From a virus, in the IMG/VR virus record IMGVR_UViG_3300020215_000079, positions 1-44,396 of that record: a stretch of DNA of 44,396 nucleotides. The stretch is one strand, 5' to 3'. The notes beneath the pieces are model-generated. The model did not search any database. It was not told the DNA's origin and saw nothing but the letters and a program-made list of their open reading frames with translations. Shown here in pieces: positions 1,502 to 35,884 of the stretch. A program made the translations under genes and the position numbers. Numbering within the stretch: the stretch's first letter is position 1; the number at the start of each line of letters is the position of its first letter.

Positions 1502-1911
1502 GTCCGCGGACGCCCCTGTTGGCGATGGTGAACGCGACCGGGACCGGGCTGACGCTGGATGGTCCGTCCCGCGCCCGGCTCGCGTCGCTGGCGGGCCAGC
1601 GGGTGACGATCGCGCCGGTCACGCGGACGCGCACGAGTGCTCAGAATCGGCGGCACTGGACCTTGATGACCGTCGGCGCCAAATCGTTGTGGGAAGACCC
1701 CGGCGAACGCCAGACGCTGCACGACGAACTGGCGCATCTGTATTTCGGGTTGCCGCCGTGTCCCAAGACCGGCCTGCGGCGGCGGCGGCGGACGCCGCAC
1801 ACCGACACGAAGGAATTCGCCGCGTTCACCGACTGGTGCGTGATGAAGCTCGTCGAGCTCGGGGCGGATCTGTCGGAGTGGGACACGGAAATCGAGCGGG
1901 CGACGGCATGA
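1498..1911 (+). CDS. NinB-like recombination protein (tentative)
   Basis: 137 residues if translation starts at the GTG that overlaps the previous stop (GTGA); an in-frame ATG lies at 1525. The central signature RTSAQNRRHWTLMTVGAK resembles the R-x(4)-QNR-x-W opening helix of NinB/Orf-type phage recombination mediators and of a related family found beside annealing proteins. The C-terminal half (EFAAFTDWCVMKLVELGADL) is helical and acidic. NinB/Orf proteins help load recombinases onto SSB-coated DNA. The match is by pattern only; the arginine run RRRRR near residue 98 could contact nucleic acid. Confidence 0.55.
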   Translation: MSPRTPLLAMVNATGTGLTLDGPSRARLASLAGQRVTIAPVTRTRTSAQNRRHWTLMTVGAKSLWEDPGERQTLHDELAHLYFGLPPCPKTGLRRRRRTPHTDTKEFAAFTDWCVMKLVELGADLSEWDTEIERATA

Positions 1912-2198
1912 GGCGCCGCGGCAAAGTGGACACCAATCAGACAGCGATCGTGGACGCATTCCGGCAGGCGGGCTGGGCAGTGCAGTCCTTAGCCAATGTC
2001 GGCGCTGGGTGTGCCGATCTCCTGGTCGCGCATCCGGCACTCCCGATCGTGCGGTTGATCGAAGTCAAGGCGTCGGGCGGGACGTTGACGCCGGATCAGG
2101 TGCGGTTTCATCAGCAGTTCCCCGTGACGATCGTGCGGTCGGTCGATGAGGCACTGGCGGTGATCACGGGGCGCGACGGCGACACGTTCGGCGGGTAA
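1908..2198 (+). CDS. VRR-NUC-type PD-(D/E)XK nuclease
   Basis: 96 residues starting in an ATGA overlap. The pattern is that of the compact VRR-NUC fold: an N-terminal helix (QTAIVDAFRQAGW), GAGCAD with Asp37 on the first core strand, then RLIEVKASGG with Glu52 and Lys54 as the ExK catalytic pair, and a closing LTPDQVRFHQQF helix. Stand-alone phage members of this size act as structure-specific endonucleases or resolvases. Together with the three upstream genes it completes a recombination set: resection, annealing, mediator, branch cleavage. The nuclease assignment is firm; the substrate is inferred. Confidence 0.8.
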   Translation: MRRRGKVDTNQTAIVDAFRQAGWAVQSLANVGAGCADLLVAHPALPIVRLIEVKASGGTLTPDQVRFHQQFPVTIVRSVDEALAVITGRDGDTFGG

Positions 2199-2206
2199 GA
2201 CGTCTG

Positions 2207-2226
2207 GGGCCGCTGGCTCGCGGCCC
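2207..2226 (+). other. Intergenic hairpin
   Basis: A perfect 7-base-pair stem (GGGCCGC/GCGGCCC) with a 6-base loop lies in the 63-base gap between the VRR-NUC and HNH genes. No T tract follows, so it is not a classical terminator; it could pause transcription or protect an mRNA end. Confidence 0.55.
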
Positions 2227-2261
2227 GCACAACTGGAAGGAACGGAGAGACGGAGGCGTGC

Positions 2262-2672
2262 ATGAGCGATCGCTTCTGGTCGAAGGTTGACAAGTCCGAC
2301 GAGTGCTGGTTGTGGACTGGTTGCGTCACCCGCAACGGTTACGGGCGCTACCCGCTGAACGGCTCGTCTGTCCTCGCGCACCGACACGCCTACGAGATGG
2401 CAGTTGGGCCGATCCCGCGCGGCCTGACCATTGACCATCTGTGTCGAACGAAACGCTGTGTCCGCGTAGAGCACATGGAGTTGGTGACGCTGGCGGAGAA
2501 CATTCGGCGTCGTCCCATCGCCGGAGTGGCCGCTGAGAACGCGCGAAAAACGCACTGTCCGCGCGGGCACGCGCTGACACCAGGCAATCTGCGGGGTGGT
2601 CAGCGGCCTGGCAATCGATCCTGCAAGAAGTGTTGCGCGATCAATGCGATGAGGAGGAAACATGCCGCTTAG
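2262..2672 (+). CDS. HNH endonuclease, homing type
   Basis: 136 residues with a good Shine-Dalgarno (GGAGG, six bases before ATG). The N-terminal part (CWLWTGCVTRNGYGRY) and the core (LAHRHAYEMAVG, then TIDHLCRTKRCVRVEHMELV) are the HNH_3 fold found in free-standing phage homing nucleases. A C-terminal zinc-knuckle-like segment (CPRGHAL ... SCKKCC) probably helps DNA binding. It is preceded by a 63-base gap, unlike its ATGA-coupled neighbours, which fits insertion of a mobile gene. Its stop lies 11 bases inside the next gene, so that gene's start site is kept. Confidence 0.85.
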   Translation: MSDRFWSKVDKSDECWLWTGCVTRNGYGRYPLNGSSVLAHRHAYEMAVGPIPRGLTIDHLCRTKRCVRVEHMELVTLAENIRRRPIAGVAAENARKTHCPRGHALTPGNLRGGQRPGNRSCKKCCAINAMRRKHAA

Positions 2673-3054
2673 GTTGTCAGAGGCGATACGACTCGGCGCG
2701 ATGCTGAAGCCGCAGGGGTCAGGCGCTGACTCAATTCGTTATCGACACGTTACAGCAACGTGCGCGCTTGGAGCGGCCTGCGAGGCCGTCGGCGCGGAGT
2801 ATCGGGAAGCAGGCGCCGATCTCTACGGCGCTGTCAGCGCCCGTTGGCCGTGGGTCACGAGGGCTCTGGAGGCGTTGCCGAACGGAGATCCGTGGCCAAT
2901 GTATTACACGCATCGATCCGTCGCCGATGCGATCTACACGCTCAACGATCACGGCTGGACCCGCGAGCAGATTGCCGATTGGGTGGAGACCCTCGAAGCG
3001 CAGCACGAGCCACTGGCCGATCCCGTGGCCGATCCCCAGCCGGTGACGGTGTAA
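2662..3054 (+). CDS. Conserved phage protein of unknown function
   Basis: 130 residues. A strong Shine-Dalgarno (GAGGAGG at 2651) lies within the end of the HNH gene. The N-terminus LSEAIRLGAMLKPQG followed by TCALGAACEAVG is a pattern I recall from many phage proteins of unknown role. The C-terminal part is helical (WTREQIADWVETLEAQ) with an acidic proline tail. No catalytic motif is visible. Confidence 0.75.
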   Translation: MPLRLSEAIRLGAMLKPQGSGADSIRYRHVTATCALGAACEAVGAEYREAGADLYGAVSARWPWVTRALEALPNGDPWPMYYTHRSVADAIYTLNDHGWTREQIADWVETLEAQHEPLADPVADPQPVTV

Positions 3055-3058
3055 CGCG

Positions 3059-3241
3059 ATGGCCGACTGGCTGCTGACCGTCGTGATCGTGGGTGCGGCA
3101 GTGATCTTCGCGGGCGCGTTCATCGTGGCCTGGGGCCGGATGACACAGGACGTGCTGACGGCCACGCGCGAGCCGGAGACGGAACTGGACGGCGACTGCT
3201 TTCTGGCAGAAGCCAATATGCGGACGCGGAGAGGGTTGTAG
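3059..3241 (+). CDS. Small single-span membrane protein
   Basis: 60 residues. Residues 4-25 (WLLTVVIVGAAVIFAGAFIV) form one hydrophobic span, followed by a charged cytoplasmic-type tail. It begins four bases after the previous stop and ends with TAG directly abutting the next ATG. The function is unknown; phage proteins of this shape in early regions often act on host membrane functions or block superinfection, but nothing here distinguishes these. Confidence 0.6.
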   Translation: MADWLLTVVIVGAAVIFAGAFIVAWGRMTQDVLTATREPETELDGDCFLAEANMRTRRGL

Positions 3242-3559
3242 ATGGCCGAGCAGCACAGTCCGTTGCCGTGGAGGTGGGAGCCGCGCGAGTCGCTGGTCGG
3301 TTATCACGATGCCGTCTTGTTGGCGGCCGATGGGAGCGGCGTTGCGTATCACAGCGCGTCGTGGCCGGTGGACAGCGCCGACGCCGCGTTCATCGTGCGC
3401 TGTGTGAACAGCCATGCCGCGCTGCTGGACGCGTTGAAGGGGCTCGTCAACCACTCGGAGTGCTGCTGCGATGGTCGCCACTGTGACAAAGACTGCATCT
3501 GGTGCGCGGCGAAGGCCGCCATCGCGCTCGCGGAGGCTACCGATCATGGCCATCTCTGA
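3242..3559 (+). CDS. Conserved phage protein of unknown function, Cys-rich
   Basis: 105 residues. The opening HSPLPWRWE and the core DAAFIVRCVNSHAALLDALKGL match a widespread small phage protein pattern of unknown role. A cysteine cluster near the C-terminus (CCCDGRHCDKDCIWC) may bind zinc. It overlaps the following gene by 14 bases. Confidence 0.75.
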   Translation: MAEQHSPLPWRWEPRESLVGYHDAVLLAADGSGVAYHSASWPVDSADAAFIVRCVNSHAALLDALKGLVNHSECCCDGRHCDKDCIWCAAKAAIALAEATDHGHL

Positions 3560-4301
3560 GTTGACCCGCGAGATCGCGATCAAGGTCCGTGACACGGTAG
3601 ACGCTGGTTTGTCGCACGGAGTCGGGCAGCCCATCCCCGGCCAGATGTGCGTGGAAGCCGCCGTGTGTTACGCGTTGGGCTTGCCGCATGGCGACGATCC
3701 GGGGTGCGTGGCACCTGCGTTGCGGCAGCTGAAGATTGGCCTCAACGATCGCTCGTGGTCGTCGCCGCAGGCGCGGGCGCAGGGGCTGCGCCGGCTCGCC
3801 GTCGCGCAGTTGGGGAGCGCGGGCGTACTGGACGAGGCCGTGTTCATCCAGCGCGTGGTGGACATGACGATCCGCAAGGCGGTGCCGGTCGGTTTGCGCG
3901 CGGCGGCGCGGGTGAATCCGGCGTTCGCCGATCGACTGGAGGCCGCAGCCGTACGGTGTGCGACCGAGGGGACGCGCGAGGCGTGCCGTGCAGCCGAAGA
4001 CGTGGCGGCCGACGCGAGACGCGCCGCCGCCTCCGCCGCCGCCGCCGACGCGGCCTACGCCGCCTCCGCCGCCGCCTACTCCGCCGCCCGAGCCGCCGCC
4101 TACTCCGCCGCCCGAGCCGCCGACGCGGCCTCCGCCGCCGCCGACGCGGCCTCCGCCGCCGCCTACTCCGCCGCCGGCGACGCCGCGCGTGACCGCGTGC
4201 TCGCGCAGTACGCGGAATGGGTTGTGGAGATCCTGTGTGACCTTACGGCACCGGGCTGTCAATGGCTCGATCTGGTGCCGCTGGAGGCTAGCCATGGCTG
4301 A
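3546..4301 (+). CDS. Phage protein with alanine-rich low-complexity domain
   Basis: 251 residues from the ATG at 3546, which has GGAGG about ten bases upstream; an upstream in-frame ATG (3471) lacks a ribosome site and lies deep inside the previous gene. The N-terminal half (MCVEAAVCYALGLPHGDDPGC, then SSPQARAQGLRRLAVAQLG) belongs to a conserved phage family of unknown function. Residues about 155-210 are almost only Ala, Ser, Asp, Tyr and Arg in short repeats, probably one long helix. The C-terminal tail resumes a normal sequence. The repeat block is encoded by imperfect tandem GCC-rich units and should vary in length between relatives. Confidence 0.8.
   Translation: MAISELTREIAIKVRDTVDAGLSHGVGQPIPGQMCVEAAVCYALGLPHGDDPGCVAPALRQLKIGLNDRSWSSPQARAQGLRRLAVAQLGSAGVLDEAVFIQRVVDMTIRKAVPVGLRAAARVNPAFADRLEAAAVRCATEGTREACRAAEDVAADARRAAASAAAADAAYAASAAAYSAARAAAYSAARAADAASAAADAASAAAYSAAGDAARDRVLAQYAEWVVEILCDLTAPGCQWLDLVPLEASHG
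4021..4182 (+). repeat. GCC-rich tandem repeat block
   Basis: Coding repeats inside the gene at 3546-4301. A 21-mer beginning GCCGCCTACTCC occurs at 4071 and 4095, and a second 21-mer beginning GCCGACGCGGCC occurs in exact tandem at 4119-4139 and 4140-4160. All repeats are multiples of three, so slippage changes protein length without shifting the frame. Confidence 0.85.
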
Positions 4302-4527
4302 GTCGGTCCAGCGGCTGCTGCGGTTCTTCGCGATCTGGCGCTGCGGGATCGTCGGGACGCCAGACCGCATCGGCCATCGGATTACTTGTCCGTCCGATCG
4401 ACGCAAGGCGATTGCCACCTGGCGCCGGGCGGCGTCGGTCTGGATGAACACGCGGTTTCACGAGGATCGGATCGACGGCTGGAAACCAGCCACGCGCGAG
4501 CGCGTCGTGCGCTTCAAACAGCGGTAA
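4294..4527 (+). CDS. Small basic hypothetical protein
   Basis: 77 residues, starting eight bases before the end of the upstream gene, with GGAGG suitably placed. It is rich in arginine and tryptophan (RLLRFFAIWRCG, RKAIATWRRAASVWM, RERVVRFKQR), so nucleic-acid binding is possible. No family is recognised. Confidence 0.6.
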   Translation: MAESVQRLLRFFAIWRCGIVGTPDRIGHRITCPSDRRKAIATWRRAASVWMNTRFHEDRIDGWKPATRERVVRFKQR

Positions 4528-4546
4528 CGAGAAAAGGAGAGCGTAG

Positions 4547-4948
4547 ATGTACGACAGAAACGATCCCATCGACGAAAAGACCGACATGCCGCAGGCAACC
4601 GTCGGGTCCATTGGCGGTGGTCTGCGCGGTGTAGCGCCGTCAGGATTTCTGCAGCGCGGGGGGCCACTGACCCCGATTGCGCCGATGGCACAGCAGGGCA
4701 ACGGGCGCAGCGAGATCGCGCACCAGCTCGACGCAGGCGAGAAGGCTGGCCATGTCCTGCATCAGCTTGTCGAACTGCTGGAGCAGCGGTTGCGGCCCAT
4801 TCTCTCGGCCCCGCCACCGACCGGCGACGGCGCCGGTAGTCAGCCGATTCATTCGACGCAAATCGGCGAATGCCTTGCCCGCAACAACGCGCTGATCGGC
4901 ACCGGGCTGGAACGGCTCCGCGCCATCATCGATCGGATCGCGCTGTAA
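4547..4948 (+). CDS. Hypothetical protein with helical core
   Basis: 133 residues with a clear AAAAGGAGA ribosome site. The first 60 residues are Gly/Pro-rich and probably disordered. Residues about 68-90 (AGEKAGHVLHQLVELLEQRL) form a likely coiled helix, and another helix closes the protein (LERLRAIIDRI). No enzymatic motif is seen. It is the last gene before a 280-base non-coding structured region. Confidence 0.65.
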   Translation: MYDRNDPIDEKTDMPQATVGSIGGGLRGVAPSGFLQRGGPLTPIAPMAQQGNGRSEIAHQLDAGEKAGHVLHQLVELLEQRLRPILSAPPPTGDGAGSQPIHSTQIGECLARNNALIGTGLERLRAIIDRIAL

Positions 4949-12226: not shown

Positions 12227-12450
12227 CTGACATGCGACCACTTGGCGTTGGAGACACAGTGAAGGTGCTCCGGGCGGTGCGCCTGCCGGTTGAGGACGTG
12301 ATTGGTGTTGGCGTGATTGAACGCGTGTCTCGTGCCTCGTCTGGCGAGTCGCTGTATTGGGTGCGAGGGTTCGCGTGTGCGCGGACAGAGCGGGAGTTGC
12401 GCCGCTGGACGCTCGATCCGTCCTCTCGTGGCGGCGCGGGTGCGCCATGA
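12223..12450 (+). CDS. Small beta-rich hypothetical protein
   Basis: 75 residues, ATGA overlaps at both ends. The sequence (GVGDTVKVLRAVRLP, GVGVIERVSRAS, LYWVRGFA, then ERELRRW) looks like a small SH3/KOW-like barrel found in several phage proteins. It precedes the cytosine methyltransferase gene and is coupled to it. Confidence 0.65.
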   Translation: MTDMRPLGVGDTVKVLRAVRLPVEDVIGVGVIERVSRASSGESLYWVRGFACARTERELRRWTLDPSSRGGAGAP

Positions 12451-13754
12451 CGGGCGAGCGGATGAACGTTGGTAGCGTCTTCAGCGGGATCGGGGGCTTT
12501 GATGAAGGCTTCCGGCGCGCGGGGTTCGGGATCGCGTGGATGTGCGAGCGGGAGCCGTTCTGTCGGACGGTGCTGGCACGCCATTTCCCCGACGTGCCGT
12601 GCTTTGACGACGTAACGACGCTCGTCAACGCGCCCGAGATCGACGTGCTGGTCGGCGGGTTTCCCTGTCAGGACGTATCGGTCGCGGGGCAGCGGCGCGG
12701 GCTGGCCGGTGAGCGGAGCGGCCTGTTTTACGAATTCATGCGGCTGGTGGATCGGTTCCGTCCGAATGTGGTGGTGCTCGAGAATGTTCCAGGGCTCTTT
12801 TCTTCCCACGGGGGACGCGACTTTTACGCCGTCCTTCAGGCGCTGGCCGAACGCGGGCTTCGACGCAGCTACCGGGTTCTGGACAGCCAATATTTCGGAG
12901 TCCCCCAACGCCGCCGCCGTGTGTTCCTTGTCAGCAGTGCTGGAGGATTCCTCCACCGTCCCGAAGCGATTCTTTTTGAGTCCGCGAGCCGCGTCAGGGA
13001 TTCTGCGAAGGGCGAGCAAGCGCGGGCGCGCGTTGCCGCCTGCCTTAGAGGACGCTCTCACGGCGCTGGCGTCAACGAACCGGGCCGGGGCGGAGAGGAC
13101 GACAGCAACCTCGTGACGTTCGACTGGCAGGCGCTCGGGTCGGACCGTTCGTGGATTCACGACCGGCCCGGTGCGACACGCGGCCTCATGGCAAATAAGA
13201 CGCTGGCGGTCGCGTATACGTTGCGTGAGAACGAACGGAACGCCAGTCAAGGCCCAGCGAACTACATCGCTGCCAGCCTATTGAGTGGTCGGCACGGCTA
13301 CGCGCCTGAGCCGGGAGACGGCATTGTGGTTAACGCGCTGTGTCCGGTGGGCGGTGGGCCGGATGACAACGACGCTCAGGCTGGGCACTTGGTTGCATCG
13401 CCCATCACGGCCAGCGCCGGACACCACGGCCACAGCAGCCCACGAGGCGACGGGCGCGACAATATTATCGCAGCGACGCTGGCTCAGCACATGCGTGGCC
13501 AAACAGACAGTGTAACGGACAACCTGCAAACAGTCCGCGCTGGTGTGCGGCGGCTCACGCCGTTGGAATGCGAGCGTCTCCAAGGCTTCCCCGATGGCTG
13601 GACCTGTCTCTGTGGCGAAGGGCATCGCGGGTCGCAGTATTGCTCCTGTCCGGATACCCCACGCTACAAGGCGCTCGGGAACGCGGTCACGGTGCCGGTG
13701 GCCGAATGGATCGCGCGGCGGCTCATGGCCGCGTGTCAGGAGCGTGTCGCATGA
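12447..13754 (+). CDS. DNA cytosine-5 methyltransferase
   Basis: 435 residues. Canonical motifs appear in order: SVFSGIGGFDEGF (motif I, SAM site), GGFPCQDVSVAG (motif IV, catalytic Cys74), VVLENVPG (VI, Glu112), QRRRRVFLV (VIII), RRLTPLECERLQGFPDGW (IX) and YKALGNAVTVPV (X). About 200 residues separate VIII from IX. This variable target-recognition region contains two similar blocks (ARVAACLRGRSHGAG and YIAASLLSGRHGYAP), as in multispecific phage methyltransferases. It methylates cytosine C5 in phage DNA, probably against host restriction. An ATGA overlap couples it to both neighbours, and there is no restriction partner. Confidence 0.93.
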   Translation: MTGERMNVGSVFSGIGGFDEGFRRAGFGIAWMCEREPFCRTVLARHFPDVPCFDDVTTLVNAPEIDVLVGGFPCQDVSVAGQRRGLAGERSGLFYEFMRLVDRFRPNVVVLENVPGLFSSHGGRDFYAVLQALAERGLRRSYRVLDSQYFGVPQRRRRVFLVSSAGGFLHRPEAILFESASRVRDSAKGEQARARVAACLRGRSHGAGVNEPGRGGEDDSNLVTFDWQALGSDRSWIHDRPGATRGLMANKTLAVAYTLRENERNASQGPANYIAASLLSGRHGYAPEPGDGIVVNALCPVGGGPDDNDAQAGHLVASPITASAGHHGHSSPRGDGRDNIIAATLAQHMRGQTDSVTDNLQTVRAGVRRLTPLECERLQGFPDGWTCLCGEGHRGSQYCSCPDTPRYKALGNAVTVPVAEWIARRLMAACQERVA

Positions 13755-17458: not shown

Positions 17459-18348
17459 CCATTGTCGTCACCGGCGCCGCCGGGTTCATCGGCTCACACC
17501 TCGTGCCCGCGCTCGAGCAGGCCGGTCACGCGGTGACGCCCATCGACCTCGCCACCAGCCCCACGCATGACATCCGCGACCTCGCCGGCCTGACGGCCGC
17601 GCTACCGAAGACCGCCGATGCCGTGATCCATCTCGCCGCGAAACCCGGCGTCCGGACGTCACTCGACGATCCGGCGGGCGTGACGCACACCAACGTGACG
17701 GGATCGGCGAACGTGCTCGAGTGGGCGCGGCAGGTCGGCTGCCCGCGCGTCATCCTGGCGAGTTCCAGCACCGTCTACGGTAACGGGCCGAATGTCGAAG
17801 ACGCGCGGGTCGCCCCGCTCAGCCCTTACGGGGCCTCCAAAGTGGCGATGGAAGCGATCGGCGAGCAGTACGCCGCGCACTTCGGCCTGACGGTCATCGC
17901 CTTGCGGCTGTTTTCGGTCTATGGACCCCGCCAACGGCCGGATTTGGCGATGGCGAAGGCGGCGGCGTGTTTCTTGGCGGGCGAGCCCTTCCCGGTCTAC
18001 GGCGACGGCTCGGCCGAGCGCGACTACACGCACGTCGACGACGTGGTGCGGGCCTTCCAGTTGGCACTCACGGCCACGCTCACGGGCTGGCAGGTCTTCA
18101 ACATCGGCGCGGGTCGGCCCGTCGTGCTGCTGGACATGCTGCGCATGGTCGCGGAGGCCGCCGGCGTGCCGATGGTCTGCCGATTTGAGCCGGCGCAGGC
18201 GTGTGACAGCGACGCGACGCACGCCACGCCGGAGCGGGCATCTCGCGGACTCGGGTTCGTGGCCGAAGAGGACTTGACGGTCGGTGTCGCCGACTACGTG
18301 ACCTGGGCCCGCGCCCAGCAGCAGGAGATCGATGCCGAAGCCGTCTGA
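17455..18348 (+). CDS. NAD-dependent sugar-nucleotide epimerase/dehydratase
   Basis: 297 residues of an extended SDR-type enzyme. VVTGAAGFIGSHL is the Rossmann NAD site, HLAAKPGVRTS and ASSSTVYG are the central strands with the catalytic Ser/Thr, and SPYGASK gives the Tyr-x3-Lys pair. LRLFSVYGPRQRPD and DYTHVDDVVRAF are the substrate-side motifs seen in UDP-glucuronate and UDP-galactose 4-epimerases. All key residues are present, so it is probably active. It sits between terminase and portal, overlapping both (4 and 17 bases), an unusual place for a metabolic gene. The exact sugar substrate cannot be told. Confidence 0.88.
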   Translation: MTIVVTGAAGFIGSHLVPALEQAGHAVTPIDLATSPTHDIRDLAGLTAALPKTADAVIHLAAKPGVRTSLDDPAGVTHTNVTGSANVLEWARQVGCPRVILASSSTVYGNGPNVEDARVAPLSPYGASKVAMEAIGEQYAAHFGLTVIALRLFSVYGPRQRPDLAMAKAAACFLAGEPFPVYGDGSAERDYTHVDDVVRAFQLALTATLTGWQVFNIGAGRPVVLLDMLRMVAEAAGVPMVCRFEPAQACDSDATHATPERASRGLGFVAEEDLTVGVADYVTWARAQQQEIDAEAV

Positions 18349-20149
18349 AAAAGATCGCGTCGCCAAGCAGTTTCAGCGCATCCGCGCCGCAGACAAAGTC
18401 TTTGACCGCTGGGAGAAAGAGTACGAGTGCGCGCGGCTCATCGAGTACTACTGCGGCAAGCAGACCCCGCGGGGGTTCGTGCCGCCCGATCACAACCCGG
18501 AGTATCGGCCCTACACCGTCAACCTGATCTTCCCGACGATCGAGACGTCGCTGCCGGCGCTGCTCTTCCATCGGCCGCAGGTCAAGATCGAGCCGAAGCC
18601 GCCCTACGGTGACGATCCGCAGACGACGATTGCCGAGCGGGCGAAGCTGTGCGAAGACACGGTACAGACCTTCATTGACGATCCGGCCGTCGCCTTTGCG
18701 GACCATACCAATCTCGCCCTGCTCGACGCCAATTTCCGCTTCGGCCTGGTGGAAGTGGGCTACACGGCCGACTGGCTCGACAACCCGCACGCGGGCAAGC
18801 CGCTCCTGAAGGAGGGCAGCGACGAGCCCCTAAAGGACAAGGGCGGCGCCGACGTGCTGCAGCCCGACAAGATCCCCCAGGCCGAACAGCTGTTCGTCAA
18901 GCGCATCGATCCGGAAACCGTCCGCGTGTCCATTTCGCGCAAGAACATCCTCGCGGAGAACGACTGGATCGGCTACTTCGAGTGGGCCTACGTCGAGGAC
19001 GTGAAGCGCAACCCGAAGTACCGCAACACGCGCGATCTGAAACCCTCCGGCCAGGTCAAGGACGTGCCGACGCCCTCGAGCGACGAGGAACGCGAGCAGC
19101 GGAGCGGCATGGTCAAGCTCTGGAAAATCTGGGATCTGCGCGCGCGCGTCAAGCACGTCCTCGCCGAAGGGCACAGTAAATACCTCGTCGAAGATGAGCC
19201 CTGGACGTACCTGCCGCTGGCCGCCCTGAAGTTCCACGAGATCCCCTCGTCGTGGTATCCGCTGCCGCCGGTGGCGAACTGGATCGGGCCGCAGGACGTC
19301 GTCAACGAAGTGCGCGAATCGCGCCGGGCGCATCGGCGGCGGTTCTATCGGCGCTACACGGTGCGAAACGGCGCGATCGAGGATACCGAGCTCGAGAAGC
19401 TTGAAACGGGCGGCGACGGGGTCATTGCCAAGCACAACGGCGTGCCCAACGAACAGCCCGTGCTGCCGGTGATCGATGCGCCGCTGGGCGGCGACTTCGA
19501 CAAAGACCTGATCGAGGCCAAGGACGACTTCATGCAGGTCTCTGGGGTCGGCGCCGAACAGCGCGGCGCGGCCGATGCCGACACGGCCACCCAGGCCAAC
19601 ATCATCGACGTGCGGACGCGCATTCGGGAATCCGCGTCACGGGTGGAGGTGGCGACCTGGCTCGGCGAAATCTGCCGACTGATGCTGCTGACCATCCGCG
19701 AAAAGATGCAGCTGGAGTTCTGGGTCAAGCGCAATCTCGACGTGATCGCGCAAGACCCAAACGAACTGGGCCGGATTCTCGCAACGTGGCAGCAGGTCAC
19801 GGCCGCCGATCTGGGCGACGGCAATCTGGACGTGAAAGTCGATCTGACCAGCCTGTCGCCGGTCAGCGAAGAGCAGCGCGCGGCGCAGTGGAACCAGATG
19901 CTCGCGCTCATTACCAATCCGTCGCTGGCGCTGATTCTCGGGTTGTCTGAGCCGTTACTGCGGAAGACGCTGAAGTTCTACGGGATCACGTCGCAGGGCG
20001 ACATTACCGAGATCCGGAACGTGCTGCAGCAGATGCTGGCGATGCAGATGGCGAGTCAGGCGGCCGCTGCGGGGGCGAGCGCGTCACCGCCCGCGACGCC
20101 ACCGGGGCAACCAGCGGGCCTGCCGGCGGCGGGAGCAACGGTGCAGTGA
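18332..20149 (+). CDS. Portal protein
   Basis: 605 residues, the size of podovirus-type portals. An N-terminal helical region (FQRIRAADKVFDRWEKEYE) is followed by YRPYTVNLIFPTIETSLPAL, a motif common in such portals, a beta-rich wing (TVRVSISRKNILAENDW) and a long helical stem (DFMQVSGVGAEQRG through IRESASRVEVATWLGEICRL). The C-terminal 40 residues are Ala/Gly/Pro-rich. The protein should form the dodecameric DNA gate of the head. It starts 17 bases inside the epimerase gene, so the two are co-translated. Confidence 0.85.
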   Translation: MPKPSEKDRVAKQFQRIRAADKVFDRWEKEYECARLIEYYCGKQTPRGFVPPDHNPEYRPYTVNLIFPTIETSLPALLFHRPQVKIEPKPPYGDDPQTTIAERAKLCEDTVQTFIDDPAVAFADHTNLALLDANFRFGLVEVGYTADWLDNPHAGKPLLKEGSDEPLKDKGGADVLQPDKIPQAEQLFVKRIDPETVRVSISRKNILAENDWIGYFEWAYVEDVKRNPKYRNTRDLKPSGQVKDVPTPSSDEEREQRSGMVKLWKIWDLRARVKHVLAEGHSKYLVEDEPWTYLPLAALKFHEIPSSWYPLPPVANWIGPQDVVNEVRESRRAHRRRFYRRYTVRNGAIEDTELEKLETGGDGVIAKHNGVPNEQPVLPVIDAPLGGDFDKDLIEAKDDFMQVSGVGAEQRGAADADTATQANIIDVRTRIRESASRVEVATWLGEICRLMLLTIREKMQLEFWVKRNLDVIAQDPNELGRILATWQQVTAADLGDGNLDVKVDLTSLSPVSEEQRAAQWNQMLALITNPSLALILGLSEPLLRKTLKFYGITSQGDITEIRNVLQQMLAMQMASQAAAAGASASPPATPPGQPAGLPAAGATVQ

Positions 20150-22283: not shown

Positions 22284-23333
22284 ATGCCTCCGTCCTCACT
22301 GACGCTCAATTACGATGCGCTGCTCTCGACGACGCTGTTCAACTACCGGCGGAAGTTCGAGGATGCCATCTCGACGGCGAACGCCTTCTATTTCCTGCTG
22401 AAGCGGGAAGGGGCGATCAAGACCAAAGACAACATCGGCGAACGCGCCCAGATCGCGCTGATGTACGAGCTCGGCCAGGCCGACTCCTACAGCGGCTACG
22501 ACCAGCTGGACACCACGCCGATGGACGGCATCACGTCGGCGTTCTTCGACTGGCGGCAGGCCGCCGTGCCGATCGCCATCTCGGGGAAGGAAGAGAAGCA
22601 GAACCGCAGCGAGGCCCAGCTGATCGACCTGCTCGAGGGCAAGACCAAGCAGGCCGAGATGGGCATCGTCGAGTTCTTCAACAAGCGGCTGCTGCAGGGG
22701 GCCGGCGGGACGTCGATCACGTCCGCCTACACGTCCTCGATCAACGGCAGCTCGTTCATCGATCCGCTGCCGAAGCTCGTCGCGTATGACCCGACCGCGT
22801 CGGTCGTGGTCGGCAACATCAACCAGAGCACCTACACCTGGTGGCGGAACAAAACGAAGAATTCGACATCCACTACCTATGCGGGGCTGCGCAAGGATCT
22901 GCGCAATCTCTACAACACGTGCTCGCTCGGCCCCGGCGGCTCGCCCAATCTGCACATCGCGGATCAGGCGGTCTTCGAGGTCTACGTCGCCGCGCTCGAG
23001 GCGATGCACCAGAACCCGTCATACCAGAAGGCGGATCTGCCGTTCGACACGGTCGCGTTCAACGGGCAGCCGGTGGTGCACGACGAGTTCGTGCCCGACG
23101 TCCAGGGCGGCTCGGCGACGCAGTCCACGACCTCGGGCACGTGGTGGATGCTCAACACCAAGTTCTTCGAGGTGCAGGTACAGGCGGACAGCAACTTCGC
23201 GCCGACGCCGTTCCAGAAGCCGGTCGGCCAGGACGCGAAGGTCGCGCACATCCTGTGGATGGGTGCGGCGCTCTGCAGCAATCGGCGCAAGCAGGGCGTG
23301 GCCGGCGGGATCGACACGACCATCGCCTCGTAA
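22284..23333 (+). CDS. Major capsid protein
   Basis: 349 residues with a good ribosome site (GGGAGTAGG). It follows the scaffold gene and has the composition of an HK97-fold capsid protein: few lysine clusters, many aromatic beta segments (FFDWRQAAVPIAISGKEE), a long spine-like helix (LLEGKTKQAEMGIVEFFNKR) and a C-terminal beta domain ending in HILWMGAALCSNRR. The sequence YSGYDQLDTTPMDGITSAFF is a conserved pattern in capsid proteins of uncultured podovirus-like phages. The N-terminus carries no long delta domain, consistent with a separate scaffold. Confidence 0.85.
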   Translation: MPPSSLTLNYDALLSTTLFNYRRKFEDAISTANAFYFLLKREGAIKTKDNIGERAQIALMYELGQADSYSGYDQLDTTPMDGITSAFFDWRQAAVPIAISGKEEKQNRSEAQLIDLLEGKTKQAEMGIVEFFNKRLLQGAGGTSITSAYTSSINGSSFIDPLPKLVAYDPTASVVVGNINQSTYTWWRNKTKNSTSTTYAGLRKDLRNLYNTCSLGPGGSPNLHIADQAVFEVYVAALEAMHQNPSYQKADLPFDTVAFNGQPVVHDEFVPDVQGGSATQSTTSGTWWMLNTKFFEVQVQADSNFAPTPFQKPVGQDAKVAHILWMGAALCSNRRKQGVAGGIDTTIAS

Positions 23334-23940: not shown

Positions 23941-24252
23941 ATGGCAGATCGGTTGATCGGCGACGTCATCGAGTACTCGAAACAGGTGCATGGGGTGACG
24001 CACCCCAACGGCAAAGAGCAGCGCTACTACGTCGCGCTGGGCCGGGCCTGTGACTGGATTCTCCGGTGCAAGGACTGTCAGCAGCTCGTCACGAGCGCGG
24101 ACATTGCCAAGCGCGGGAGCTGCGCCTGCGGCAATCGGCGCTTCGCGGAAATCACGATGCTGAGCGAGCAGGAACACGCGTCCATCGTGTCCGGTGCCAT
24201 CGACTTTCCGCATCGCGAGGACTTTCTGCGGGAGTTTGCCCCCTGTGAGTGA
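23941..24252 (+). CDS. Zinc-ribbon hypothetical protein
   Basis: 103 residues with GAAGGAG upstream. CKDCQQLV and CACGNRRF form a four-cysteine ribbon in the middle. The remainder is alpha/beta without recognised motifs. It overlaps the glycosyltransferase gene by eight bases (GTGAGTGA), which couples the two. Confidence 0.65.
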   Translation: MADRLIGDVIEYSKQVHGVTHPNGKEQRYYVALGRACDWILRCKDCQQLVTSADIAKRGSCACGNRRFAEITMLSEQEHASIVSGAIDFPHREDFLREFAPCE

Positions 24253-25687
24253 CCGGCGCCCGCTCATCGTGATCGGCGTGCCCTGCTACGGCACGGTGGC
24301 CCCCGACGTGCTCGAAGACTGGATGGTCTTTGCCTACCACTGCGGGCGGCGGATGCCGGACTACGACTTTCAGCTGGCGATCAAAACGAAGTCGGAGCAG
24401 TTCCGGGCGCGGAACGCCATCGTCGAAGCCGCCCGCCAGGCCAACGCCGACTGGCTGCTGATGCTCGATGACGACATGGTCATCAATCCGCTGCGGGAAA
24501 CGCTCGCGGCGAGCACCGATTACAGCTTTCTGTCGCGGCTGCTGGCGCACGACAAGGACGTCTGCGGCGCGCTCTACTACCAGCGCACCGGTGAGTGCGC
24601 GCCGGTGCTGATGGCGAAGGCGGGGGAGCACGGCTACCGGTTCCTGCGCGACGACGAACTGACCGGGAGGCTGCAGCGCGTCGACGTCGCCGGCGGCGGC
24701 TGTCTGCTCATCAAAATGCGCGTGTTCGACCGGCTGAAGCCGCCCTACTTCGCCCCGGAACACAAGTACGGGACCGACGTGCAGCTGTGTCGCGCGGCGG
24801 CCGAGGCGGGCTTCGAGGTGTGGGCCGATACCTCGATCGAGCTCGGGCACGTGCGAGAAGAGCGCGTGATCGTGACCTCGCGCAACCGGCATCAGTTCCA
24901 GACCTCCGACACGCTGCCTGGCGAAGTCAAGCGGCAGTTTATCGCCAGCGACGTCTACCGGCGATTGGAAGCTGACGCGGCCACGTGGACCGGCTACCGG
25001 GATCTGGACGAGATGCGCGTGTATGCGCAGGCCTTTCTCGGGCATTACGCCGACTGGAAAGCCGCCGGCCGCTCGGATCTCGACTGGTACCGCTCGTTTC
25101 CGAAAGAGCGCGTCTGTCGGCAGCTCTGGTTCAACGTCGAGAGCGCGCACAAGCGCCAGATGACCGAGTTCATCCTGGGCAGCATCAACCATCGGGAGTC
25201 GTTCGACATTCTCGACTTCGGCTGCGGGATTGGCATTCCGGCGTTCACGCTCGCGGAAAAGGGGCACCGCGTCACCGCCTGCGATCTGCGGGACACCGGG
25301 ACGTTCCAGTTCCTGCAGTGGCGCGCCCGCCAGTACAACGTGCCGATCACCTTCCACGGCATTGACGGGGTCACCGATGGCGGCGTGCCGCACTTCGGCG
25401 ATCGCCTGTTCGACATCATCATCGCGATGGACTGCCTGGAACATCTGCCGGATTGGCGGGATCGGCTCGCTCTGCTCGTCCGGCATCTGCGGCCGGGCGG
25501 CGTGCTGTTCGCCAATAACGCCGTCCTCGACGACACGACGCATCCGGAGCACTACGACCTGAAGCCGAAAGACTTTCTCCGGGCGTGCGCGGATCTCGAT
25601 CTCATCGCGCAGAACGCCATCACCTACGTCAAGCGCGCGGCACCATCGGTCGCGGAGTCGCGACCGCAGGAGTTCGCCAATGCCTAA
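24245..25687 (+). CDS. GT-A glycosyltransferase fused to SAM-dependent methyltransferase
   Basis: 480 residues. The N-terminal 220 form a GT-A (GT2-like) domain: LIVIGVPCYGTVAPD, ARNAIVEAARQANADWLLML, then DDDM (Asp75-77, the DxD metal/nucleotide-sugar site), GALYYQRTG and VAGGGCLLIKMRVF. A helical linker follows (about 225-315). The C-terminal domain is a class I methyltransferase: FDILDFGCGIGIPAFTLAEK (SAM loop, near residue 320), ACDLRD with the acidic residue, FDIIIAMDCLEHLPDW and HLRPGGVLFANNAV. It probably transfers a sugar to a virion or cell component and may methylate the product. With the epimerase upstream it forms a small glycan-modifying set within the head operon. Confidence 0.85.
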   Translation: MSDRRPLIVIGVPCYGTVAPDVLEDWMVFAYHCGRRMPDYDFQLAIKTKSEQFRARNAIVEAARQANADWLLMLDDDMVINPLRETLAASTDYSFLSRLLAHDKDVCGALYYQRTGECAPVLMAKAGEHGYRFLRDDELTGRLQRVDVAGGGCLLIKMRVFDRLKPPYFAPEHKYGTDVQLCRAAAEAGFEVWADTSIELGHVREERVIVTSRNRHQFQTSDTLPGEVKRQFIASDVYRRLEADAATWTGYRDLDEMRVYAQAFLGHYADWKAAGRSDLDWYRSFPKERVCRQLWFNVESAHKRQMTEFILGSINHRESFDILDFGCGIGIPAFTLAEKGHRVTACDLRDTGTFQFLQWRARQYNVPITFHGIDGVTDGGVPHFGDRLFDIIIAMDCLEHLPDWRDRLALLVRHLRPGGVLFANNAVLDDTTHPEHYDLKPKDFLRACADLDLIAQNAITYVKRAAPSVAESRPQEFANA

Positions 25688-27172: not shown

Positions 27173-28262
27173 CGTCGCGCTGCTGGCCGGGCTGCTGGGG
27201 GCGATCCCCGCGTCGGCGCAGTACGCCGACAACGCCGCCTATGTCGCGGCATTTCAGCCCGACATTGAGGCGGTCGCGACGGCCAACGCCAACACTGCCG
27301 AGCACGCCGTGCTGTTCACGTGCCAGTGCGTGCTGTGCCACGGCGACTACATCACCCACGCCTCGGTCACAGATGCGGTGCTGGAGGACTACATCGACGC
27401 CTGCAAAGAGGCGGGCTTTCGCCGGGTCGAGATGAACCCGATCCTCGTGCCGTGGCAGGACACGACCGCGCACGCCGCGACGGTGACGAAGTACACCAAC
27501 GCGGTCGCGTACACGCGCACGCAGGGCTTACAGGTCTCGTTTTCGCTCACCGTCACCAGCGAGGGCGGCTACGCCGACGACCTGACGGAGACGCAGACGT
27601 CGACGACGACCGCGATCACGGAACTCGCGTCCCGCTACACGCCGCACGCGTTCTCGGTCGGGCACGAACCGACGACGATGGTGGCGCGGCTCGGGTTCAG
27701 CATCGGCGCGGCGGCCTTCACGACCTACATCACGACGAACTGCGCGACGCTGGCGACGCACGCCCCAAGCGCCCGGTGCGCGGCGGCGCTTCTGCCGACA
27801 GAAGTCGCGACCTACCTCGGCGGCCTGACCGGGATCGCCGGGCTGCACAAGATCGGGCTGGATCTCTACGGCACCACCGATCCGGCCTCCACGATTACGA
27901 CGATCCGCAACGCCGGCAAGCAGCCCTACATCGCGGAGACGTGGCGGACCGCGGCTGAAGTCGTAGGCGGCACGCTGACCACCGGCGCCGGCGTCGGCAT
28001 CGGCGAAGACGAACTGATGCCGCTGGATCTCGCGTGGGTGCGGGCGATGACGTTGCTCGCGAGCGATCACGCCCTCGAAAGCCTGACGTTTTTCTGGACG
28101 TTCCCGTTTTTCACCTACGCGGTGAGCGGGAACAACAACGCCACGAGCACCACCTATGCGCTCGACGTCGTCGCGGCGGTGACGGCGGGGGCGCGGACGC
28201 CGGTCTACCGTGCGGTGAAAGCGCTCATCGGGCAGTGGGGCTGGACGCGCGGGCGGATGTGA
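27144..28262 (+). CDS. Exported TIM-barrel glycoside hydrolase candidate (third of three)
   Basis: 372 residues. SWLKRLTSVALLAGLLGAIP followed by ASA is a signal peptide cleaved after about residue 25. The mature protein looks like a clan GH-A barrel: ACKEAGFRRVEMNPILVPW (early strand), QGLQVSFSLTV, FSVGHEPTTM with Glu near 173 at the place of the strand-4 acid/base, IGLDLYGTT, and QPYIAETWR with Glu near 264 at the strand-7 nucleophile position. Cellulase-like or galactanase-like families share this pattern. It may degrade capsule or cell-surface glycan from outside the cytoplasm. The assignment is structural inference from spacing, not a recognised subfamily. Confidence 0.6.
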   Translation: MASWLKRLTSVALLAGLLGAIPASAQYADNAAYVAAFQPDIEAVATANANTAEHAVLFTCQCVLCHGDYITHASVTDAVLEDYIDACKEAGFRRVEMNPILVPWQDTTAHAATVTKYTNAVAYTRTQGLQVSFSLTVTSEGGYADDLTETQTSTTTAITELASRYTPHAFSVGHEPTTMVARLGFSIGAAAFTTYITTNCATLATHAPSARCAAALLPTEVATYLGGLTGIAGLHKIGLDLYGTTDPASTITTIRNAGKQPYIAETWRTAAEVVGGTLTTGAGVGIGEDELMPLDLAWVRAMTLLASDHALESLTFFWTFPFFTYAVSGNNNATSTTYALDVVAAVTAGARTPVYRAVKALIGQWGWTRGRM

Positions 28263-28897
28263 TGACCAAGGCCGAGCTCCGCGCCGACGTGTATCGCCGC
28301 CTGGAAGAAGTAACGGGCAGCCCGGTGTACGTGTCGCAGGCCGACGTCGACGACGCCCTCCACGACGGGTATCTGGAGATCTCGGATGCCACGGAATGGC
28401 GCGAGGTCTACCGGACGGTCGATCTCTGTGCCAGCCGGCCCTACTACGACCTGCGGACGCTGTTCGGTGCCGACCTCGTCGTGCTGCGGCCGCTCGGCGC
28501 GTTCCACGAGGACACCAATCGATGGCTCACCCCGATTAGCCCGCGGGATCTGGATGGTGGCTACGCGCGCTGGGAACAAGTGATCGGACCACCGGATCGG
28601 CTGTTCACGCGCGGGCTGTTCTGGATCGCCTACTACCCAGCGATCGGCAGTGACTCCGGCACGGTCAAGCAGTATCTGGCGGTCCTGCCGGACGCGCTCG
28701 ACGACGAGGACGCGCCGGGGTTCGACGAGGACTATCACCCCGCACTCGTGGAATACGCGCTCGCCGAGATCCTGCCGCAAATCGGCGAAGTCACCGCCGC
28801 CGTCGCGGCGTGGGACGCCTACACGGCGTATGAACGCGCCCTCGCGGCGCATATGCAGAACCGCGGATCGGTGGCTCGCCAGCATGGCTATCAGTAA
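28262..28897 (+). CDS. Head-tail connector/adaptor protein
   Basis: 211 residues, TGATG overlap. The N-terminus (TKAELRADVYRRLEEV, then VYVSQADVDDALHDGYLEIS) is the helix pair common in podovirus adaptor proteins that extend the portal. A beta domain and a C-terminal helix (PALVEYALAEILPQIGEVTA) follow. It is probably the first tail-side ring below the portal. The next gene starts with a related helix pair. Confidence 0.65.
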   Translation: MTKAELRADVYRRLEEVTGSPVYVSQADVDDALHDGYLEISDATEWREVYRTVDLCASRPYYDLRTLFGADLVVLRPLGAFHEDTNRWLTPISPRDLDGGYARWEQVIGPPDRLFTRGLFWIAYYPAIGSDSGTVKQYLAVLPDALDDEDAPGFDEDYHPALVEYALAEILPQIGEVTAAVAAWDAYTAYERALAAHMQNRGSVARQHGYQ

Positions 28898-31475: not shown

Positions 31476-33740
31476 ATGAATCAGCTCGCGCGACGCGATT
31501 TCTCCGGCGGCTGGCAGCCGAGCGCCGATGCGGTCAACGCACCGGCGACGGCCCTGCTGCGGGCGGACAATCTCGTCCTCGATGAGCGCGGGGTGCTCGG
31601 CCTCCGTCGGGGGTCCGCGAAAATCAACGGCGTCGCGTTCGCCGACCTCGACGTGCATTCACTGTTCACCGTGAACCTGTCCGGCACGCGCTACCGCATG
31701 GCCGGGGCCAATAACGCGGTGTACGCCAACGGCGCCAGTGTCAGCACCGGGTTTGCCGGTTCGGGGGATATCGCCTTCGGGTCGTATCTCGATCAGATCC
31801 TGATGGCGCGGTCGACCACCAAGCGCAAGTACGACGGCACGACCGTGCGCACGTGGGGCATCGCGGCGCCGTCCGCCGCGCCGACGTTGACGACGCTGGC
31901 GGCAGATAGTGACACGTTTGCCTCGTTCAACTCGGGCGAGTCTGGCCTCGCCTGGACGGAAGACGACGGCACCGGGACCGGCCACGCGGCCGGCTTCGAC
32001 GGCACCGCGAATGGCGCGGTCGTCCTCAATCCGAATGCGACCACTGGCCGCGGCCGGATCACGCGCGACCTCGGCGGCGCGACCGACTTCGCCACCTACT
32101 CAGGCGGTCAGACCGGCACCGACGACGATCAGATTCAGCTCTACATGTATGTGACCGAACCCGAATACCTGATCAATCTGGTGCTCTGGTTCGATGTCGG
32201 GGATGGCTCGTTCCAGCGGGACGTCTACTCCTACATCTTCTTTTTTAACGGGTCGGTCGAGGAAGGCACCAACACACCGCTCAGCGTCGGCTGGAATCTG
32301 CTCTCGGTGCGCCGCGGGGATCTGCTGCGGTGGGCGAATCCGACCGCCGGCACCAATTGGTCCACCGTGCGTGCGGTGCGGCTCACCGTCAATCAGCAGG
32401 TCGGCAGCACGAGCGCCCAGGTGCGGTTCGATCAGTGGCGGATCATCGGCGGGAACCAGCGGCCGCTCACCGGCGTGCAGCGCTACAGGCTCGTGGCGGT
32501 CCGGAACACCGGTACCTACTTTGGCAAGAGCGCCCCATCGGCCGTCAGCGCGGACATCGAAACCACCGCGCAGGGCGTGCGGGCGACAGTCGCCGCCGGG
32601 GTGATTGCCGCGCTCGATACGCAGGTCAACGAGCTGTGGTTGTACCGGGAAAACGACGCGCTCGGGGATTACTACCGCGTGGCCGTGCTCACCGGTGGCC
32701 CGTGGGCCGGCGCGCAGACCATCGACGACATCACCAGCAATGACGCCGCGCTCGAGGCCAATCTGCTGCTCGAAGCGACCAACACGACGCCGCCCGATAA
32801 CATCATTGCGATCGTCGGCCCGCACTATGACCGCGTGCTCTGCCTGACGGCGACGCACGTCTACCCCTCGCAGCCGCGTAATCTCGACAGCTTCGACAGC
32901 GAACAGGTGATCCGCGTCGGCGATGCGTCCGAGACGGCCTACTGGATCGCAAAGGTGCGCGAAGAGCTCTACGTCGGCACCTCGAAAGACATCTACCGCC
33001 TGGTGGGCGACTGGAGCCAGCGGGCCGACGGCACGGTGAACGTCACCAAGATCCCGATGGGGATCGGCGCGCCGCCGATTGCGTCAGCGATCGCGCAGGA
33101 CGGCGACACGCTGATCTACCTGGCCTCCGACGGCTGGCGACAACTCGGGTCCGAGGTGCCGGTCACGAGCGGCGCCGTGGATCTGCTCTACCGCGGCTAC
33201 ACGCGACACGGCGTCTCACCGGTGAATCTGTCGACCGGGCGCTTTAAGGCCGCGCTGACCAAGGGGTGGTTTCAGGCGATTACGCCGGAGGGCGCGAGCA
33301 CGACGAGCAGCACCGTCCTGCACCGCTACGTGCCGGCCCTGCGGCAGTGGTACCGGCACACCTACACGCCGAACTGGCGCTGCATCTACCGGGAACCGGA
33401 CGGGACGCTCATCGCCTCCGACACCGCGGGGTTCGTGTGGACGCTCGACACCGGCACGCAAGACGAGGGCGCCAACATCCCGGTCGTGCTCTGGACGCCC
33501 GTGGATGACAACGGGCAGCCGAACAATCGGAAAGACGGCTGGGAAGCGCGCGTACGCGCGAATACCGGCGGGGCCACGGCCACGGTCGGTGTGCACCTGG
33601 ACGGCTCGGGCAGCACGGCCACGACCTTTGCGGTGGCGGGCTCGGACCTGACGCCGGTCGCGGCCGCGCTCGACGGGATCGCGGCCTTCCGACAGATCCA
33701 GCTGCGCGTGACGGGCAGTTTTTCCACGTTCCTCTGGTAG
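31476..33740 (+). CDS. Tail hub/stabilisation-type protein, ends at in-frame amber
   Basis: 754 residues. The N-terminus (ARRDFSGGWQPSADAVNAPA, DNLVLDERGVLGLRRGS) is typical of podovirus proteins with beta-propeller folds that line the tail nozzle. A carbohydrate-binding-like insertion lies at about 150-330. Propeller repeats follow (YVGTSKDIYRLVGDW, TLIYLASDGWRQLG, GTLIASDTAGFVWTLDT). The last 80 residues (GWEARVRANTGG onward to RVTGSFSTFLW) resemble the repeat units encoded after the TAG at 33738-33740. The same frame stays open for another 404 codons, so the amber seems to interrupt one protein. Confidence 0.8.
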   Translation: MNQLARRDFSGGWQPSADAVNAPATALLRADNLVLDERGVLGLRRGSAKINGVAFADLDVHSLFTVNLSGTRYRMAGANNAVYANGASVSTGFAGSGDIAFGSYLDQILMARSTTKRKYDGTTVRTWGIAAPSAAPTLTTLAADSDTFASFNSGESGLAWTEDDGTGTGHAAGFDGTANGAVVLNPNATTGRGRITRDLGGATDFATYSGGQTGTDDDQIQLYMYVTEPEYLINLVLWFDVGDGSFQRDVYSYIFFFNGSVEEGTNTPLSVGWNLLSVRRGDLLRWANPTAGTNWSTVRAVRLTVNQQVGSTSAQVRFDQWRIIGGNQRPLTGVQRYRLVAVRNTGTYFGKSAPSAVSADIETTAQGVRATVAAGVIAALDTQVNELWLYRENDALGDYYRVAVLTGGPWAGAQTIDDITSNDAALEANLLLEATNTTPPDNIIAIVGPHYDRVLCLTATHVYPSQPRNLDSFDSEQVIRVGDASETAYWIAKVREELYVGTSKDIYRLVGDWSQRADGTVNVTKIPMGIGAPPIASAIAQDGDTLIYLASDGWRQLGSEVPVTSGAVDLLYRGYTRHGVSPVNLSTGRFKAALTKGWFQAITPEGASTTSSTVLHRYVPALRQWYRHTYTPNWRCIYREPDGTLIASDTAGFVWTLDTGTQDEGANIPVVLWTPVDDNGQPNNRKDGWEARVRANTGGATATVGVHLDGSGSTATTFAVAGSDLTPVAAALDGIAAFRQIQLRVTGSFSTFLW

Positions 33741-34955
33741 GACTTCACGGTCACGTATCGCGAACGACCCCCGATCGTGGTGTATGCGGAACCGAAGCCC
33801 GAAGCCCGCGGGACGCGGCGCAAGCGGTACACCGGCCTACGGATCACCATCGACACCCTGGCCGGTCCGGCCACGGTGATCCCGGTGGTCGATGACCTGG
33901 ATCAGCCGAGCCACACCATCAACACGAGCGACGTGCTCTCACGCGCGATGACGTTTCAGAACGTCGTCGGCCGCGACCTGTGGGCCAAGATCAGCAAGCC
34001 GACCGGGTTCGAGTTCTACGCCATTGATCCGATCGTCGTGTCGGAGATGCCGCCCATTCAGCAGGGGTTGTTCCCCGACACGAATGGCGGGTATCCGTTC
34101 CGCAAGCGGATCATCGGGCTCCGGCTCCGTGTCTGCACGCTCGGCGCGACGATCCAGTTCACCCCGGTGGTCGACGGGGTCTCGCTGACCGCGTTCACGG
34201 CCCAGACCGGCACCAACGAACCCGACGAAATTCTGCACTACTTCACGACCCAGCAGATTGCCACCGACGTCGCGTTTGGGACGAACGGTGACATCGAGCT
34301 CTACGAGTTTGAGCCGATCGTGCAGCAGAAGTTCCCGCAACCCGTGCGCCTGCGCATCCCCGACACCAACGCCGGTACGCCCGGGCCGAAGCAGATCACC
34401 GGCCTGCGGATTCGCGCCTGCACGCTCGGCAGCACGCGGACGTTCATCCCGATTCTCGACGGGGTCAATCAGACGGCGTTCACGGCCACGACCGATGCCA
34501 ACGAACCCGACGAGATCGTGCACTCGTTCAGCAGCCCGCAGCTGGCGACGGACGTCGCGTTTACGGTGGACGGCAATGTCGAGCTCTACGACTGGGCACC
34601 GCTCGTCGATGCCACGTTGCCGCTGGGGCGGACGCTCTGGGATTCCGGGCCGATCGATCTCGGCACGCGGGCGGTGTGGCTGCGCCTGGTGACGTTCAAG
34701 GCCAAGCTGACCGGCACCCTGACGGTGACGCCCTACGTCGACGACGTGGCGCAGACCCCGATCACGGTGAGTGCGCGCAGCGGCCATCCGATTACGACCT
34801 ATGACGCCGTGCTGGCGCGGACGGTGCGCGGCCGGCAGGTCCGGTTCGTCTTCTCGGCGTCGAGTGCCTTTTATCTCTACTGGCTCGAGCCGCGGTATCG
34901 GGTCACCGGTCACGAAACGGAACTGGCGAAAACGCGCGTGGAGGTGGCGGCCTAA
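33741..34955 (+). CDS. C-terminal continuation of tail protein: four repeat domains
   Basis: In frame with the previous gene after one TAG; the first possible independent starts are GTG 33777 and 33780, both without a ribosome site. The segment has four units of about 80 residues, each with a GLRIRACTLGSTRTFIPILD-like opening strand pair and closing in a strand such as VELYDWAPLV, IELYEFEPIV or FYLYWLEPRY. The sequence straddling the amber (FSTFLW, stop, DFTVTYRERPP) matches the closing strand of such a unit. Read through, the whole protein would have 1159 residues counting the amber position. If translated separately, it would be a tail-tip or fibre adaptor lacking the start of one strand. 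Confidence 0.7.
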   Translation, partial: DFTVTYRERPPIVVYAEPKPEARGTRRKRYTGLRITIDTLAGPATVIPVVDDLDQPSHTINTSDVLSRAMTFQNVVGRDLWAKISKPTGFEFYAIDPIVVSEMPPIQQGLFPDTNGGYPFRKRIIGLRLRVCTLGATIQFTPVVDGVSLTAFTAQTGTNEPDEILHYFTTQQIATDVAFGTNGDIELYEFEPIVQQKFPQPVRLRIPDTNAGTPGPKQITGLRIRACTLGSTRTFIPILDGVNQTAFTATTDANEPDEIVHSFSSPQLATDVAFTVDGNVELYDWAPLVDATLPLGRTLWDSGPIDLGTRAVWLRLVTFKAKLTGTLTVTPYVDDVAQTPITVSARSGHPITTYDAVLARTVRGRQVRFVFSASSAFYLYWLEPRYRVTGHETELAKTRVEVAA

Positions 34956-35884
34956 TGCTGACTCCCTCCGCCCTCACGTTGCCGGAGGTGCAGCGGGCGT
35001 TCCGTGACGTCGACGCGCTCGTGTCGGCGCTCGGGCAGACCACGCCGTACGACTGGAAACGGCGGCGGCTGATCAACCTGCTCGATGGCACCGGCGCGCA
35101 GGATGCCGCGACAGTAGGCCAGTTGGACGCCGCGATCGCCGCGCTCCGCGACGAACTGACGGAGGACGAGGACGCCGAGGGGCCGTTGATCGACGGGCCG
35201 ATCCGCGTGGGGGCGTTCGCGCAGCGTGGGGCGGCGACGGCGCACAAGAGCGAGCTGTTCGTGGCCTCCGATCGAACCTACGTCACGTGGGTGAGCACCG
35301 GGGCCGTCTGGCAGTACCTCGCTGGGATGCAGCGCGGGCTGATTGCGGCGATCACGACCGGCCTGACCACCAACGATGCCGGCTATCTCTACTACGCGAC
35401 GGACTTCGCGCGCGCCTATCGGTGGACGGGATCGGCGTGGGAAGACGCGCCCGGCGCACCCGCCCGCGGGCAGATCGTCTACTTCCCGGTCACGCTCCAT
35501 GCCGACTTCGCACCGGGCACCGGCTGGCAGCTCTGCGACGGCACCGCCGGGGTGACGCGCTCGACGCCGACCGGGGGCACCACGACGGTGACCGTACCGG
35601 ATCTCACGACCGATAGTCGATTTCTGCGGTCCGTGGCTGGGGCAACCGGCGGCACCGGGGGCAGCGCGACGACGCACACGCACGCGGTGAATCCGCCGAA
35701 TACCACGAGCGGCACCCCGTCGAACACGACCACGGTGCAAGCCGGCGCCGGCGCCACCGTCGCCAGTGACGGGCACACGCACGACACCGACATTGCGTCC
35801 TTCACCAGCGGCGCGCCGAGCGGCTCGGGGGGCGATGACGCCTTGCCGCCCTACTACAACGCACGTCCGTACATGAGGCTCTGA
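34955..35884 (+). CDS. Tail fibre/collar-type receptor-binding candidate
   Basis: 309 residues, TAATG overlap. An N-terminal helical anchor (SALTLPEVQRAFRDVDALVS) precedes a central domain (about 90-170) and a tail-collar domain: GTGWQLCDGTAG, VTVPDLTTDSRFLRSV, then GGTGGSATTHTHAV. The HTHAV and DGHTHDTD histidines recall the metal-binding HxH of collar-type short fibres. The end PPYYNARPYMRL is the usual closing motif of this family. It is the best receptor-binding candidate in the genome. Confidence 0.75.
   Translation: MLTPSALTLPEVQRAFRDVDALVSALGQTTPYDWKRRRLINLLDGTGAQDAATVGQLDAAIAALRDELTEDEDAEGPLIDGPIRVGAFAQRGAATAHKSELFVASDRTYVTWVSTGAVWQYLAGMQRGLIAAITTGLTTNDAGYLYYATDFARAYRWTGSAWEDAPGAPARGQIVYFPVTLHADFAPGTGWQLCDGTAGVTRSTPTGGTTTVTVPDLTTDSRFLRSVAGATGGTGGSATTHTHAVNPPNTTSGTPSNTTTVQAGAGATVASDGHTHDTDIASFTSGAPSGSGGDDALPPYYNARPYMRL

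Follow-up and report, generated by a model that had tools for sequence, protein, structure and literature searches.

An in-frame amber codon in the first nozzle domain of a predicted podovirus tail protein

The nozzle protein gp17 of phage SU10 comprises a platform, a seven-bladed beta-propeller and four C-terminal nozzle domains, which straighten and thereby lengthen the tail (PMC9509320). Phages in which TAG is recoded (genetic code table 15) form a second point of reference for an amber codon inside a late gene, and 52% of them encode suppressor tRNAs (PMC11210395). A third is provided by selected prokaryotic genes, in which in-frame stops are frequent, mostly short-lived and probably without functional recoding; they are commonest in the mobilome category (PMC7918605).

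The window analysed here, the whole 44,396 nucleotides of IMG/VR virus record IMGVR_UViG_3300020215_000079, carries a putative nozzle gene whose reading frame is interrupted by one TAG. The stop is most likely an ordinary chance event and not a mechanism that yields two proteins. The features of the locus are listed in Table 1.

Table 1. Features of the predicted nozzle gene and its neighbours (positions within the window)
Feature	Position	Strand	Evidence or remark
Tail adaptor protein	28034..28897	+	Pfam SU10_adaptor, E 4.4e-12
Predicted tail-nozzle gene frame, 1159 codons plus TAA, one TAG inside	31476..34955	+	Translation, relatives, Foldseek
Predicted N-terminal part: head-closure Hc3-like start and beta-propeller-like core	31476..33476	+	PHROG 8040, E 1.3e-4; Foldseek to GP4, T7 gp12, P22 gp10, SU10
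Predicted nozzle domain 1 (beta-sandwich), amber in closing strand	33477..33788	+	AlphaFold model of residues 655-1159, strands 14-117
In-frame TAG, codon 755	33738..33740	+	Alignment; Tyr in 4 of 9 aligned relatives
Predicted nozzle domain 2	33819..34049	+	AlphaFold model; repeat scores
Predicted nozzle domain 3	34104..34331	+	AlphaFold model; R3-R4 z 44
Predicted nozzle domain 4	34389..34643	+	AlphaFold model; repeat scores
Predicted nozzle domain 5, last domain, likewise last in aligned relatives	34674..34904	+	AlphaFold model; alignment of relatives
Next gene, tail-fibre-like, weak YadA-stalk match	34955..35884	+	Own strong ribosome site

The predicted nozzle protein and its surroundings

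The gene lies downstream of the portal gene (18332-20149) and of the SU10-type adaptor gene, and the latter marks the surroundings as a podovirus tail operon. The major capsid protein gene (22284-23333) has only distant relatives among annotated phages, for example Mx8 and BUCT555. No homologues of the nozzle protein itself were found in annotated phage records, nor any near match at the DNA level, and a sequence match to the SU10 nozzle was likewise not found. The N-terminal part weakly matches the head-closure family Hc3. When the AlphaFold model of the whole frame was compared with the PDB by Foldseek, the best phage matches were GP4, T7 gp12, cyanophage A4, Kp9, P22 gp10 and PhiM1, followed later by SU10 (7z4b), with low TM-scores and a low-confidence model (pLDDT 55). 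The core fold of a nozzle or hub protein is thus recognisable at this low pLDDT and these low TM-scores. Taken together, the gene product is predicted to be a podovirus tail-nozzle protein of the T7 gp12, SU10 gp17 or P22 gp10 type.

The C-terminal part, residues 655-1159, was modelled at a pLDDT of 77 as five consecutive beta-sandwich domains, and fold searches with this array returned generic beta-sandwich matches only. In the predicted plan of the protein, five beta-sandwich nozzle domains accordingly follow a beta-propeller-like core. Codon 755 corresponds to residue 101 of this model and falls within a strand at 99-117 (753-771 of the whole protein) with a pLDDT of about 85, which would put the amber in the closing strand of the first nozzle domain. 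The initial annotation had reached a similar picture by aligning the residues around the stop with the closing strands of four following repeats. That alignment holds for the later repeats, with a z of 8.9 for R2-R5 and domains 3 and 4 being near-duplicates (z 44); the first repeat is weaker by sequence alone (R1-R4 z 5.4, R1-R2 z 0.2) but is backed by the predicted structure.

The number of C-terminal nozzle domains varies among the aligned relatives (L002, L003, L013, L014, L016, L021, L022, L023 and L026), most of which have two; three are present in L021 and L022, and five in L003 and the window. This variation in number (2, 3 or 5) within the phage family is the only mildly new point of the analysis, and the range from two to five hints that the length of the tail extension evolves by domain duplication.

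The head and tail genes include one for a methyltransferase-domain protein (24194-25687; Pfam Methyltransf_23 and others) that is kept in the relatives G002 and L013. A C-5 cytosine DNA methylase gene (12357-13754; PF00145, E 2.2e-55) is kept in G001 at about 50% identity. In the nearest relative (L007, record G001), the terminase large-subunit gene (930-4589) forms one frame of 1219 aa with two insertions that look intein-like by eye, one inside the P-loop and one near the C-terminus. Each opens with C and closes with HN, followed by S or C. The first insertion, which encloses a 187-aa open reading frame on the opposite strand, is missing from the terminase gene of the window. At 1344-2130 of L010 (record G002), a group I intron (Rfam RF00028, 64 bits), with an HNH-like open reading frame on the opposite strand, splits the major capsid gene, which is uninterrupted in the window.

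The amber codon and the state of the gene in relatives

As first proposed from the sequence, the frame runs for 754 residues, meets a single TAG, and continues in the same frame for 404 open codons to a TAA, with no second stop on the way. None of 2000 base shuffles of this downstream stretch remained open (mean of about 9.6 stops per shuffle), so its openness is not due to chance.

Nine related viral contigs, 27-70% identical over the best aligned segment, each carry the gene as one open frame of 793-1167 aa. In a wider search of 31 records, most of them reached via the capsid gene, at least 12 sequences span codon 755, and none contains a stop inside the gene; the lone stop reported, a TGA in G027, is the natural gene end. 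At the position of the amber, tyrosine is found in L003, L021, L022 and L023, and R, L, S or H in the other aligned relatives. The nearest of them, L003, has the codon TAC, one base from amber; it is 70% identical, and records that lie very near the window may be missing from what the searches cover. When viral contigs were searched with degenerate DNA from the region of the stop, L003 alone was recovered, and two queries for prophage copies in GTDB genomes recovered none. Of all the sequences found, this contig alone thus carries the amber, and the alignments point to a single uninterrupted chain as the family-wide and ancestral state. The view of one tail protein with a lone amber inside a folded unit is upheld by the uninterrupted relatives and by the predicted strand at codon 755.

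Both halves of the frame look alike in composition and constraint. Third-position GC is 0.873 before and 0.876 after the stop, and dN/dS against L003 is 0.248 before and 0.230 after. Changes were assigned to the window and to L003 in ratios of 61:66 upstream and 13:7 downstream, which is no difference (Fisher p 0.23). These values, in which dN/dS and relative rate alike span the long time since the window and L003 separated, show equal purifying selection on both sides. An old truncation with relaxed downstream selection was rejected, as no sign of it is seen in either measure. Comparisons of this kind exclude an old truncation, and they read the same for a recent mutation, an artefact or read-through.

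Origin of the amber codon

The amber is very probably a single-base nonsense change in one contig, a judgement that covers a real recent allele and an error in the assembled sequence jointly. One tyrosine-type codon would have become TAG by a single substitution, either in the phage (or in the assembled subpopulation) or in the assembly. Across 15 genes of this genome, 1071 codons lie one base from TAG, and 61% of the one-base routes to a stop lead to it; when a nonsense change arises here, an amber is therefore what one would expect, and no special cause has to be invoked for it. Each of the two variants meets an objection. Stops make up about 3% of single-base changes in these genes; they should therefore be rare in a contig that contains few errors, and this weighs against an error if the assembly is good. 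A successful real allele is made less likely by the harm that a nonsense change would usually do in a gene for a structural tail protein. Rare events are to be expected among contigs picked by a scan for oddities, as this one was. If the change is real, most chains would end inside nozzle domain 1, lacking its end and the whole of domains 2-5 and thus having none of the five nozzle domains complete; in a host that does not suppress ambers, the tail would then be defective or altered. That the change is recent, and how it would affect the tail, is inferred. The gene that follows need not depend on reading past the amber, because it has its own strong ribosome site.

Of the three explanations originally offered, a recent mutation or assembly error fits best, and regulated read-through found no positive support. 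According to the latter, most chains would end at the amber and a minor form of 1159 residues would bear the five nozzle domains. The shared frame, the purifying selection on the downstream codons and a break close to where a modular C-terminal array begins would all suit such a mechanism. Against it, the stop is absent from every relative, at least 12 of which have a sense codon there, and the nearest ones simply have a tyrosine at this position. The stop is also predicted to lie within a strand, not between domains, so that the last domain of the short form would be incomplete. A minor long form moreover ill suits the model of SU10, in which a hexamer of the nozzle protein builds the tail extension with its C-terminal nozzle domains (PMC9509320). 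An RNA fold that stimulates read-through was rejected, since the downstream RNA folds more weakly than its shuffles (z +0.66 and +1.19; nested folds only). Programmed read-through is hence regarded as very unlikely. A very low probability is likewise given to the amber being a real, maintained switch, by which most nozzle chains stop after the propeller, a minority read through, and virions carry mixed nozzles with few extended arms. Were the stop both real and maintained, it would represent a tail component of a DNA phage whose two lengths depend on how efficiently translation terminates.

It is similarly improbable that the host of the phage is amber-suppressing or recoded, so that TAG is read there as an amino acid. 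Such a host would allow the phage to tolerate an in-frame TAG, but TAG serves as an ordinary stop elsewhere in this genome, as the initial annotation had supposed. It ends 3 of the 17 genes checked, in two cases where relatives end too. For the gene that ends at 22279, the alignment runs to the final codon of its counterpart in the nearest relative, G001, which ends there in TAA; at 23877, both relatives end at the same place, also with TAG. Full recoding of TAG, already doubted at the outset, was rejected on these grounds. Many in-frame TAG codons and avoidance of TAG as a terminator, the pattern of table 15, were looked for, and one in-frame TAG was found. The record, which may be incomplete, contains no tRNA gene of any kind and hence no suppressor tRNA. 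Despite the many codons one step from TAG, none of the other genes that have relatives showed an interruption, and the lack of a second in-frame amber makes a suppressor host unlikely.

Production of two separate proteins, the downstream part being started at GTG 33777 or 33780 or by re-initiation, is the least credible reading and was rejected, because these in-frame codons 36-39 bases past the stop lack a ribosome site, the split would cut a predicted domain, and every relative makes one fused chain. The earlier reading that no ribosome site precedes the two GTG codons agrees with their Shine-Dalgarno pairing of 0.1 and -1.3 kcal/mol, respectively, which amounts to none (many genes here reach -5 to -14), and the next in-frame GTG with any such pairing lies more than 130 bases past the amber.

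With the single-base change as the preferred reading, a more general caution follows: a lone in-frame stop in one assembled virus contig, with all relatives intact, is best treated as a point change as long as no reads or siblings prove the contrary.

Comparison with known systems

The closest parallel to the stop itself is the sporadic in-frame stop of prokaryotic genes (PMC7918605), with which it shares a single nonsense codon, intact orthologues and purifying selection on both sides; it differs in being known from one virus contig only. With the amber-recoded phages of table 15 (PMC11210395), the locus has in common an in-frame TAG in a late structural gene, whereas here there is one TAG only, no suppressor tRNA is encoded, and TAG is still a stop. 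The nozzle or hub proteins T7 gp12, P22 gp10 and that of GP4 resemble the predicted protein in their core fold and in the head-closure Hc3 match (PHROG 8040), but the protein described here is longer and carries a repeated C-terminal domain array. Compared with SU10 gp17, it has five nozzle domains instead of four, lacks a sequence match, and bears an amber in domain 1, in this copy only. It resembles SU10 gp17 in the predicted succession of a propeller-like core and a chain of beta-sandwich domains, in the SU10-type adaptor gene of its operon, and in the Foldseek match to 7z4b.
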